From NCBI GenBank assembly GCA_027623995.1, contig JAQBUF010000022.1, positions 1-49,685 on the forward strand: 49,685 bases of DNA, written 5' to 3'. Under the pieces are notes generated by a model that saw only the letters and a program-made list of their open reading frames with translations, was not told the origin of the DNA and ran no database searches. The stretch is from Nitrospirota bacterium. GTDB taxonomy: Bacteria > Nitrospirota > Nitrospiria > Nitrospirales > UBA8639. Below are positions 2,828 to 49,685 of this stretch, piece by piece; the first letter of the stretch is position 1, and each line of letters begins with the position of its first letter. Both the position numbers and the translations under genes were made by a program.

Positions 2828-3458
2828 GGTTACCCCAAAAAGGCAGCCCAACAGTAATTGCCTTTTCTCCAGTTTTTGGAAAAAGACGAACATTCACTTT
2901 TTGGCTCATGGGTTATGGAGGAGTCCGCTGGTTCGGTGACTATGTTAGTGTTGCCACCGAATTCCTGAGGGGATACATTCATGATTCTTGAGAAGGCAGT
3001 ACTTAATAATGTGAACTGTTCGCGCTAGATGGGTAGCGGCTTGGGAACATAAACCTTATTTATTAGTGGGCGTATAGTAGATGCTTAAATTTTCAGCAGA
3101 CCGATATATTGCCATTAGTTCCAGGTTGACGAGCGTGATTAGGCTCATTGAACGGGCAGAGTATCGTTATGAAAAAATCAACGACGGTACACTTGTTTCC
3201 TGAAAGGGGACGTTACCCTTTTTTAGCAGTGGTTAGGTCGGATGTGTTAGAGGGAGGGGATGAGCCGGATCATTTGATGGTTATTGTCGAAATGTCGAAA
3301 CTGGCAGGTTGTGTGGCAGGGGGTAGGTGTTTCCTTCCAAATTAGTCCAGCAAGGCGAGTTTTTCCTCTACAGACCGTAAGGATGACTTTAGATTGATAG
3401 TAGGTGATCGCGTCAAAATTTTCCCATTCACATCATTCTTCTGAATCTGCAACCTCCC
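2828..3458. other. Gene-poor intergenic stretch with one doubtful small ORF
   Basis: About 630 bp separating a plus-strand and a minus-strand gene that converge here. The only candidate is a 58-codon frame at 3169-3345 (plus strand, starting MKKSTTVHLF), with no recognisable domain, signal peptide or clear ribosome-binding site. I see no strong terminator. Confidence 0.35.
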
Positions 3459-26122: not shown

Positions 26123-26210
26123 GTGATGTGTAATGCGTGAAGCGTGAAGCGCGGGGAAAAAGAAATATTCCTTTTCTTTTTCGCTTCACGGATCACGCTT
26201 CACGTATCAC
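26123..26210. repeat. Fold-back repeat of GCGTGAA units
   Basis: Left arm 26123-26151 and right arm 26182-26210 are complementary at about 23 of 29 positions. Each is built of 7-nt units (GCGTGAA and variants). The loop is A/T-rich. The end overlaps the region just after the stop of the next minus-strand gene (26223), so it may also end that transcript, although no U-run follows. Confidence 0.7.
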
Positions 26211-26222
26211 GAACGGATAGTC

Positions 26223-46422: not shown

Positions 46423-46732
46423 TCGCGGTGATTTGAAAAGAACGCATCGAACGTCTTCCCTCTTAGGGAATAAAGGGAGTTTGCCTGCCTTTTATCTAAA
46501 CTTCAATTCGCTAACGATCTAGATTAGGATGGACGTTCTCAGGGAATCTGCTTCGGTTAATCGACTTGACCGCTTGCTTGACAAAGTATTCTGACCTTCC
46601 CTAAGGTTCCGCTTTAGTATTGACATATGGGGCACGGGTGCAGGGAAGAAGGTGTAACTCCTTCGCGGTCCCGCCGCTGTAACTGGAAACGAAACCCGCA
46701 GAGGCCACTGTCTGGATTCGTGAAGCATAATC

Positions 46733-46793
46733 CGTGATGCGTAATGAGTTAGAAAAAGTTACGTACGTCACGCTTTACGCATAACGCATCACG
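46733..46793. repeat. Fold-back repeat inside the riboswitch arm
   Basis: CGTGATGCGTAATGAGT (46733-46749) pairs with ACGCATAACGCATCACG (46777-46793) at about 15 of 17 positions. It uses the same GTGATGC/GCGTAAT-type units as the element at 26.1 kb. It extends the variable arm between GCCACTG and GGGAAGGC. Confidence 0.75.
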
Positions 46794-46824
46794 ATCTGGA
46801 TGGGAAGGCGCGGGAAGTAGGTTA

Positions 46825-47003
46825 GGGCCTGTGAAAAAATAACTGAGACAACATCGCGCCTAGATTTGGGTCGAATTTGGACGTAACGATTGAGAAAAGG
46901 CCGAGGCATAGCACAGCTATGTTGAGGTTTTTTCGATTGAGGCGCGTTCAAAGGTGGCCCGAAGATGGGATGGGATTTGTCTTAGTAATTTTTTCACAGG
47001 CCC
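46825..47003. mobile_element. 179-bp MITE-like element within the riboswitch
   Basis: Terminal inverted repeats of 27 bp, left beginning GGGCCTGTGAAAAAATAACT and right ending GTAATTTTTTCACAGGCCC, match at 25 of 27 positions. The interior has its own palindrome (CATAGCACAGCTATG near 46907-46921) and GCGCC/GGCGC arms. No gene inside. Ends differ from those of the 19.3-kb element, so this is a separate family. No clear target duplication. Confidence 0.82.
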
Positions 47004-47145
47004 TTCGGATCCAGAAGCCAGAAGACCTACCCGAGCTACGAATTCTGTTTCTCCAATTCTTTGATGTGGATTGGACGGCACAGGATTCACGACCTTCGAT
47101 CCCTCGGGGCTGGGGAGCGGGTGAGGATGAAGACGCGGGTGCAAT

Positions 47146-47178
47146 CCTCAGGGTCGTTTTGGCCTTGGGGATTTTTTT
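47146..47178 (+). terminator. Terminator of the cobalamin leader
   Basis: CCTCAGGG (47146-47153) pairs with CCTTGGGG (47163-47170), 9-nt loop, followed by ATTTTTTT ending just before the btuF ATG. ACGACC (47089-47094) and GAGGAT (47123-47128) can instead pair with GGTCGT (47152-47157) and ATCCTC (47144-47149), which would block it. This fits a riboswitch expression platform. Confidence 0.6.
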
Positions 47179-48207
47179 ATGTTGAGTCTGTTGTGGCACC
47201 GGCATCATAGCCTTGGCTCTACGCCATGGATTCGTTTTCCTCGTCTTTTTCTTGCAAGCCTGCCTTTTGCTCTGCTTATCTTATTCGTGTGCGAACCGCT
47301 GTTTGCGTTTTCTGATCAATCGGATTCTATGAAACGTCGTCAACAAGGAATTCTTACCGGAATGCCATTTATGGCCAACGTGGCCCCACGGACGTTTGTT
47401 GACGATACCGGGCATAAAATTTATTTATCCAAAACCCCCAAGCGAATTGTTTCTTTGGCCCCAAGTATTACTGAGATGTTGTTTGCGATTGGGGCGGGAG
47501 ATTCTGTCGTTGGGGTCACGGAGTATTGTGATTATCCACCAGAGGCCTTAACTAAAACGCAGGTGGGTGATTCTCGAGCCAATCTTGAGGCCATCCTCGC
47601 CTTAGAACCCGACCTTGTGTTGGCCATGGAAGTCATTCGGGATGATGTGCTGAAAACGCTTCAGCAGCTCAAGATCCCGTTGTTTATTCTCGAAGCCCAA
47701 TCCCTTGAACATGTGTACTCTCATATCCAAACCCTTGGCCGTATGTTAGGGCGTGTGCCGATGGCCAATACGTTGGCAGAAACCATGCGGAAAGACATTC
47801 AAGCGATCGGTGATCGTACGCGCTCATTGCCAAAACCTCGGGTGCTGTATGTGGTGTATCCTCAGCCTTTTATCACGGTTGGGGCAGGAAGTTTCATTGA
47901 TCAGCTTCTTGAGTTCGCCGGTGGAGAGAATATTGCTAAAGATGCTGGGAGTGCCTATCCGCGATTGAGTATGGAAGTGGTGTTACAAAAGGATCCAGAA
48001 ATAATTTTATTTCCCACGATGGGTGGGGTGAGCTCATCTGAATCTGATCTTCAGCAATGGAGGAGATGGAGCACGATGAGCGCGGTAAAAAACGAGCGTC
48101 TGCATCTTGTTCCATGGGCGTTGATTAGCAGGCCGGGCCCGAGGCTGGTGCAAGGCCTCGCCGCATTGGCCAAAGCCATTCATCCTGAAATTTTTCAGGA
48201 GAGCTGA
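47179..48207 (+). CDS. btuF: Cobalamin ABC transporter substrate-binding protein
   Basis: 342 residues. Leader with hydrophobic core LFLASLPFALLILFVCEPLFAF, then a class III binding-protein fold: PKRIVSLAPSITEMLFAIGAGDSVVGVTEYCDYP, LEAILALEPDLVLAMEV, a long central helix and SMEVVLQKDPEIILFP. Family BtuF/FepB-like; the riboswitch assigns cobalamin (or a precursor such as cobinamide) as ligand. The ATG directly follows the leader terminator, with GGGG in its 3' arm as the only Shine-Dalgarno-like sequence. Three bp before the permease gene. Confidence 0.9.
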   Translation: MLSLLWHRHHSLGSTPWIRFPRLFLASLPFALLILFVCEPLFAFSDQSDSMKRRQQGILTGMPFMANVAPRTFVDDTGHKIYLSKTPKRIVSLAPSITEMLFAIGAGDSVVGVTEYCDYPPEALTKTQVGDSRANLEAILALEPDLVLAMEVIRDDVLKTLQQLKIPLFILEAQSLEHVYSHIQTLGRMLGRVPMANTLAETMRKDIQAIGDRTRSLPKPRVLYVVYPQPFITVGAGSFIDQLLEFAGGENIAKDAGSAYPRLSMEVVLQKDPEIILFPTMGGVSSSESDLQQWRRWSTMSAVKNERLHLVPWALISRPGPRLVQGLAALAKAIHPEIFQES

Positions 48208-48210
48208 CCC

Positions 48211-49344
48211 ATGAGTGATAGCCAATTGGGTACTCAAACTTCTCATCCGCCTGTTGAAGCTCTGCGGTACCCAGGCGTGGAACCGGTAGGTGGAGCTATT
48301 GCATTTCTTTCAGCGGGTCGCTGGCTTACGAGCCTTTCAGTGTTGGGATTCTTGAGTGTGTTGATCGGTGTGGGCTGTTTGACCGTGGGGGCCGAGTCCA
48401 TTGGCTTTGCCACTGTTCTTCACGCCTTGGGTCTGGCTCTTCAAGAAGGCGGCGTGAAAGTCGAGGGTGTTGGGGTTTCTGAAGTGATTCTGTTGCAAGT
48501 TCGCCTGCCACGCGTGGTGTTGGCCTTTCTTGTCGGAGGCTCGTTGGCCACGGTTGGGGTCGCGTTGCAAGCGCTGTTGCGCAATCCCTTAGCCGAACCC
48601 TATGTGCTGGGCATTTCCAGTGGTGCGGCCTTTGGTGCGACGTTGGGGATTCTGCTCGGTATTGGTGGAACGGTCATGGGATTTTCAGCCCTGCCGCTTT
48701 GGGCATTTGTTGGCGGGCTTCTCTCTATTCTCGTGGTGTATCGCATTAGTATCACCTATCGGATGTTGTCCGTGCATACCCTGTTGTTGGCTGGGGTGAT
48801 TCTCAATGCGCTGTTTTCTGCCTTAATCATGTTTGCCGTTTCAATTGCCGACCCGACGCGCGCGTTCAAAATGATGATGTGGTTGATGGGTACGTTAGTG
48901 TCTCCCGAGTACTCAACCTTGCTAGGGCTTGGATTGTTTTTAGGTGTCGGCGGAGTGTTGCTATTCTGGCTGGCTCGCCCGCTCAACATTTTGACGATGG
49001 GTGAAGAAACCGCGAGAGCTTTAGGCGTTGAGATTGAACGCGTGAAGAAACTCATTTTTGTCGTGGCGGCCTTAATGACAGGCGCGGTTGTTTCCATCGC
49101 GGGATTGATAGGGTTTGTGGGCATGGTAGTTCCGCATACGGTTCGCATGGTCGTGGGAGCGGATCATCGTTTGCTCTTGCCAGCGTCTGCATTGGTGGGA
49201 GGGATGTTTCTCATGATTGCCGACACTGTCGCCCGAACGGTGCTTGCGCCGACGGAACTTCCGGTCGGAGTGGTGACGGCGCTTATCGGCGGCCCGGTCT
49301 TTATTTACTTGCTCGTGAAGCGGAGGGCGGGAGTGGCCTTGTGA
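48211..49344 (+). CDS. btuC: Cobalamin ABC transporter permease
   Basis: 377 residues, FecCD/BtuC family, about nine to ten helices. Signatures: LRLPRVVLAFLVGGSLATVGVALQALLRNPLAEPYVLGISSGAAFGA-type segments (48500-48640), ARALGVEIERVK, and GLIGFVGMVVPHTVRMVVGADHR, the loop that contacts the ATPase. The N-terminal 45 residues are an extra hydrophilic extension. Starts 3 bp after btuF and overlaps the ATPase gene by GTGA. Confidence 0.94.
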   Translation: MSDSQLGTQTSHPPVEALRYPGVEPVGGAIAFLSAGRWLTSLSVLGFLSVLIGVGCLTVGAESIGFATVLHALGLALQEGGVKVEGVGVSEVILLQVRLPRVVLAFLVGGSLATVGVALQALLRNPLAEPYVLGISSGAAFGATLGILLGIGGTVMGFSALPLWAFVGGLLSILVVYRISITYRMLSVHTLLLAGVILNALFSALIMFAVSIADPTRAFKMMMWLMGTLVSPEYSTLLGLGLFLGVGGVLLFWLARPLNILTMGEETARALGVEIERVKKLIFVVAALMTGAVVSIAGLIGFVGMVVPHTVRMVVGADHRLLLPASALVGGMFLMIADTVARTVLAPTELPVGVVTALIGGPVFIYLLVKRRAGVAL

Positions 49345-49685
49345 CGATAACTTCCGACCATCACTTGGCCTTTGATGTGCAGGGACTGTCTTTTCGATAC
49401 GATCATTCCCCTCATCGCGGGTGGGCGATCAAGAATTTGGACTGTACGATCAATGCCGGAAAAATTATTGGCGTGATTGGTCCCAATGGGTCTGGAAAGA
49501 CTTCATTGCTGAAATTGTTGATGGGGCTGTTATCTCCAGAGAGTGGAAGCATTTCTTTATTTGGTCAAGACTTAGTGGGCTTATCACCAGCAAAGATTGC
49601 GCAACAAGTGGCCATTGTTCCCCAAGAAACCTCTCAAGTGTTTCCTTTTACTCTGGGAGAATTAGTCCTGATGGGACGGTTCCCG
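49341..49685 (+). CDS. btuD: Cobalamin ABC transporter ATP-binding protein, cut by window edge
   Basis: First 115 codons, GTG start overlapping the permease stop. Walker A GPNGSGKTSLL and Q-loop IVPQETSQVFPFTLGELVLMGRFP are typical of the FecE/BtuD family. Signature motif and Walker B lie beyond the window. Third gene of the riboswitch-controlled uptake operon. Confidence 0.93.
   Translation, partial: MTITSDHHLAFDVQGLSFRYDHSPHRGWAIKNLDCTINAGKIIGVIGPNGSGKTSLLKLLMGLLSPESGSISLFGQDLVGLSPAKIAQQVAIVPQETSQVFPFTLGELVLMGRFP

Follow-up and report, generated by a model that had tools for sequence, protein, structure and literature searches.

Cobalamin riboswitches are highly variable in their P6 accessory region (PMC9600662), and in the repressing corrinoid riboswitch of Priestia megaterium metE the arrangement of P13, antiterminator and terminator has been tested by mutation (PMC10653944). 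Bacterial MITEs are short and non-coding, carry terminal inverted repeats, are present as dispersed copies and give rise to hairpin transcripts (PMC10969869). In the pneumococcal trp operon a mobile repeat, the BOX element, lies between two T-box riboswitches and is co-transcribed in a leader that still appeared to repress (PMC3049150). Here we describe a MITE-like element that lies inside a single cobalamin aptamer of a nitrite-oxidiser-like bacterium of the order Nitrospirales. The leader that contains it, a match to the cobalamin riboswitch family RF00174, is situated upstream of a btuF-btuC-btuD-like transporter operon near the end of the window, which is the whole stretch of 49,685 nucleotides analysed here (contig JAQBUF010000022.1). 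The features to which we refer throughout are as follows.

46577-46582, + strand: -35-like hexamer TTGACA upstream of the aptamer, kept in the aligned relatives (leader alignment)
46598-46821, + strand: 5′ segment of the cobalamin aptamer, covering positions 1-149 of the RF00174 model (3′-truncated cmscan match)
46665-46677, + strand: P5/L5 hairpin (fold), with loop CCCGC at 46670-46674 complementary to L13
46711-46800, + strand: long iterated palindrome that occupies the first peripheral arm (P6 accessory), absent in L056, the leader of a same-genus genome (arm survey)
46822-46824, + strand: left target-site triplet TTA (empty site GTAGGTTAG in relatives)
46825-47003, + strand: MITE-like element of 179 bp without an ORF of its own, folding as one hairpin (copies elsewhere; fold)
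46901-46931, + strand: apex hairpin of the element with U-run, terminator-like (terminator scan; apex fold)
47004-47006, + strand: right target-site triplet TTC, differing from TTA at one position (junction comparison)
47007-47037, + strand: remaining, 3′ part of the aptamer, including the B12 box and one helix strand, TCCAG at 47010-47014
47102-47126, + strand: predicted P13, with L13 GCGGG at 47117-47121 (leader alignment and folding)
47122-47150, + strand: predicted antiterminator UGAGGAU/AUCCUCA, overlapping P13 and the terminator (-9.8 kcal/mol; conserved)
47143-47178, + strand: predicted intrinsic terminator with U-run, overlapping the btuF ribosome-binding region (scan and fold; conserved)
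47179-48207, + strand: intact gene for a btuF-like substrate-binding protein (PF01497; score for NF002894 under its cut-off)
48211-49344, + strand: btuC-like permease gene, intact (PF01032; NF007081 below its cut-off)
49341-49685, + strand: btuD-like ATPase gene, truncated by the end of the contig (family match)

An element inserted between intact aptamer segments

With its inserts present, the leader matches RF00174 at 46645-46756 with 32.8 bits, which passes the gathering threshold of 31.5; the match over the whole leader is misaligned because of the inserts, its 3′ half being misplaced into the first peripheral arm. Neither the Rfam model nor a clade-specific covariance model bridges the insert. 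Positions 46590-46823 alone give a 3′-truncated match of 52.4 bits over 46598-46823 (cmscan), and the uninterrupted L056 leader scores 90.7 bits as a whole and 63.1 bits when cut at the insertion point of the window. The preliminary description held that the aptamer segments on either side of the element are intact, and this is borne out: the core helices and the B12 box (AGCCAGAAGACCTACC at 47016-47031) are all present, and 35 of 35 aptamer pairs mapped from L056 are canonical in the window when the element is disregarded. Across 36 relatives these pairs were formed in 97.6% of cases, with 17 pairs changed on both sides, which none of 500 shuffles matched, and slid controls were only 37–53% formed. 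The helix adjoining the insertion on its 3′ side (46683-46687 with 47010-47014), whose strands are mutually complementary in the window, was 100% formed in the same relatives, with four covarying pairs, and therefore must close across the element. A promoter scan of the leader returned no full sigma-70 promoter pair.

That a 179-bp element with terminal inverted repeats splits the riboswitch was confirmed by comparison of its ends, since 46825-46851 and 46977-47003 match as inverted repeats at 25 of 27 positions. The length first proposed stands; the range first given, 46824-47004, takes in one flanking base per side. Three further copies of the same length, 80–85% identical, are present in the window's own genome, and dozens of about 179 bp each occur in relatives, where they are up to 89–90% identical (tens of copies in a second same-genus genome, about 25 in genome G004). 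The contrary case, in which the stretch would be a conserved part of the aptamer without copies elsewhere, thus fails. No copy was found in the same-genus genome G001. In an alignment of 59 copies the lengths range from 177 to 181 bp, and 47 of 60 rows have TNA triplets at both flanks, with the two triplets identical in 35. The element accordingly has the traits by which MITEs are recognised, being short and non-coding, with terminal inverted repeats, multiple copies of uniform length, a target-site duplication and an empty site. Target duplications of 3 bp with the sequence TNA are linked to the IS5 family, IS1031 group, and the element shows this trait. A search for an autonomous parent found PF13340 in none of six genomes and only DDE_Tnp_1 loci without matching ends, and no other RNA families were found within 1.5 kb of 14 further copies.

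The uninterrupted leader sought in related genomes is present, including in L056. The junction in the window reads TTA-[element]-TTC, the uninterrupted site in L056 is GGGAAGTAGGTTAGTATCCAGGAGCCAG (...GTAGG-TTA-GTATCC...) and that in other relatives is GGGAAGTAGGTTAGGATCC. The distance from GGGAAGG to the B12 box is 32 in uninterrupted relatives and 214 in the window, a difference of 179 + 3. The copies elsewhere, the target triplets and the empty site in relatives together indicate transposition into a pre-existing riboswitch. An assembly artefact was considered and rejected: L056 has the two flanking sequences joined without a break, and a TNA triplet marks the junction as it does at other copies. 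The insertion point follows RF00174 model position ~151, which we take to be the P6 accessory region, and the site is a tolerant one. Extra stretches occur at the same point in relatives L011/L012/L014, L016, L062, L065, L094, L100, L102 and L141, and a survey of 58 btuF-type riboswitches found extra stretches there in six other lineages (L094, L100, L102, L131, L141 and L160). In L100 (aptamer 3045-3397) about 98 nt, and in L102 (aptamer 775-1092) about 66 nt, are added at the junction used by the element, and both leaders give full-length RF00174 matches (62.2 and 61.5 bits, respectively).

Predicted folding of the element and of the expression platform

The element RNA is predicted to form a single hairpin of -100.3 kcal/mol (z = -13), compared with only -59.8 kcal/mol for the opposite strand. 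In the predicted fold of the whole leader no pairs join element and aptamer, and 75 of the 78 pairs of the spliced fold are kept. The earlier picture of a giant extra stem is supported by this fold and by the independent extra stretches in relatives. All 59 copies fold better on one strand, the same as that transcribed here (mean -95 vs -68 kcal/mol); the one listed exception is a duplicate match to the reverse strand. Current selection for the RNA hairpin was considered and set aside, as private changes are not biased (12 G-U vs 16 A-C), and the strand asymmetry looks inherited because recent private changes do not favour it.

Downstream of the aptamer, the leader has the sequence features of a repressing transcriptional corrinoid riboswitch and is predicted to be one. 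L5 (CCCGC) and L13 (GCGGG) are complementary, with a calculated duplex energy of -11.7 kcal/mol, P13, antiterminator and terminator are mutually exclusive, and this platform is conserved in the aligned relatives. The operon genes are btuF-, btuC- and btuD-like by family, a tentative assignment in that the NCBIfam scores lie below the curated cut-offs. Relatives have a second cobalamin riboswitch about 3.4 kb downstream of the first; none was found in the genome assembly of the window, whose contig ends inside btuD at 49685.

We consider it probable that a MITE landed in a repressing cobalamin riboswitch at a peripheral position that tolerates inserts, where its self-contained hairpin leaves sensor and platform as they are in relatives. 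By this account the non-autonomous element would have entered the P6 accessory region, duplicating a 3-bp target of the TNA type, and, in the RNA, would hang as a hairpin of ~75 bp between two aptamer helices; since that hairpin would be self-contained, neither the ligand pocket nor the L5-L13 kissing loop nor the terminator switch would differ from its counterpart in relatives. Without B12 the antiterminator (47122-47150) would form and the operon would be read, and with B12 the kissing of L5 and L13 would let P13 hold GAGG, so that the terminator (47143-47178) would form and the operon would be shut. This account builds on the observed insertion and empty site, the intact pairs and platform and the predicted fold of the element independent of the aptamer. 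From these we infer that the leader binds its ligand, regulates the operon and has retained its response, and both fold and anatomy favour a switch that is still able to work.

Alternative readings of the insertion

The element could affect the operon in ways that spare the aptamer, as a terminator-like hairpin or RNase III cleavage inside it could alter expression without harming the aptamer. It may be that the element attenuates or stops btuFCD at any B12 level, either because its apex hairpin and six U act as an intrinsic terminator or because it slows the polymerase. The scan does find a terminator-like site at 46905-46923 followed by a run of six T, and the apex fold is calculated at -16.6 kcal/mol. 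However, the three terminator-like sites found compare with 1.2 expected from shuffles of the whole region, and one of the three is the riboswitch's own terminator; the U-run of the element starts 4 nt beyond the simple stem unless tandem G-A pairs close the gap, and the motif is matched in only 31 of 59 element copies. Both btuF and btuC are moreover intact. We regard attenuation as unlikely. A different fate of the transcript would be cutting of the ~75-bp stem by RNase III, whereby the aptamer in the mature RNA would consist of two pieces that its helices hold together, a new 5′ end would arise and the stability of the message would change. The stem is long and near-perfect and therefore a likely substrate, and the genome encodes RNase III (G000:C81:50964-51629), but cleavage may come too late to matter because the termination decision falls during transcription, and we judge this outcome improbable. 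The element hairpin, in our reading, would neither terminate transcription nor do harm when cut.

The insertion might also have broken the riboswitch, leaving the operon constitutive and the aptamer intact-looking only since the event is recent. The ages are consistent with this: the window copy sits on an end branch of 0.034 changes per site, set against a divergence of about 0.85–1.3 changes per fourfold site between the window and L056. With so recent an insertion, an aptamer that had lost its function at that event would still appear intact, and conservation or decay is therefore uninformative on function. What speaks against a broken switch is that the predicted fold keeps the aptamer and that relatives have up to about 98 extra nt at the insertion point, and we hold this explanation to be very improbable.

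Palindromes in peripheral arms and relation to known systems

The preliminary description accounted for the aptamer with a single insert. Whereas the 179-bp element stands, that account overlooked that the other peripheral arm also holds an insert, a palindrome at 46711-46800, which is built of the iterated words GTGATGCGT / ACGCATCACG and has partial copies elsewhere in its own genome. Long arms of this sort are present in 24 of 58 btuF riboswitches, and their gains and losses on the BtuF tree amount to at least 14 changes, nine of which are forced by well-supported branches. More widely, among 126 distinct cobalamin aptamers from Nitrospirales, 58 carry arms of 55–110 nt, many of them palindromic like that in the window. 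We tentatively suggest that dispersed palindromic elements may be a recurrent raw material of riboswitch peripheral structure, and that in Nitrospirales mobile or iterated palindromes may have settled time and again in the P6 accessory region of cobalamin riboswitches, where their folding on themselves would make them tolerable, the window aptamer carrying two and remaining functional; the case for this falls somewhat short of even.

Two further observations concern such palindromes. For the arm of the btuF riboswitch of Nitrospira moscoviensis (L141), about 50 related sites are scattered across the chromosome, because of which it looks like a captured dispersed palindrome. Another iterated palindrome in the window, at 26124-26215 (CGTGAAGCGTGAAGCG ... 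CGCTTCACGGATCACGCTTCACG), uses the same vocabulary as the riboswitch arm.

The locus offers a before-and-after natural experiment on the gain of a peripheral stem, with one event, a known site, a known element family and intact relatives. Should the switch still be functional, it would show that a structured RNA can take up a mobile element without effect as long as the element supplies its own fold; if true, this would account for some of the wide variation in length among cobalamin riboswitches. A practical consequence is that standard covariance searches can misalign or miss riboswitches that carry such inserts.

Within the open-access literature searched, a scope outside which most subscription papers lie, we found no earlier report of a transposable element inside an aptamer. 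Compared with described RF00174 riboswitches (PMC9600662), the window has in common the core aptamer, the B12 box, the L5-L13 complementarity and extra P6 accessory stems; the extra stem here, however, is a traceable mobile element with a target duplication and copies elsewhere. As in Priestia megaterium metE (PMC10653944), the 3′ side of P13 also pairs with the 5′ side of the terminator to give the predicted antiterminator, although the metE riboswitch has no insert and its function was tested, whereas the switch in the window is known from sequence and predicted fold. The element has all the traits described above for bacterial MITEs (PMC10969869), with a target that here lies inside an aptamer. 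Among published cases known to us, the pneumococcal BOX element (PMC3049150) comes nearest, being likewise a mobile repeat co-transcribed within a riboswitch leader; BOX sits between two T-box riboswitches and the element of the window inside one aptamer, and the element family and the ligand differ. Overall, the variable P6 accessory region and MITEs in transcripts are both known already, and the present locus combines them as a MITE inside an aptamer.
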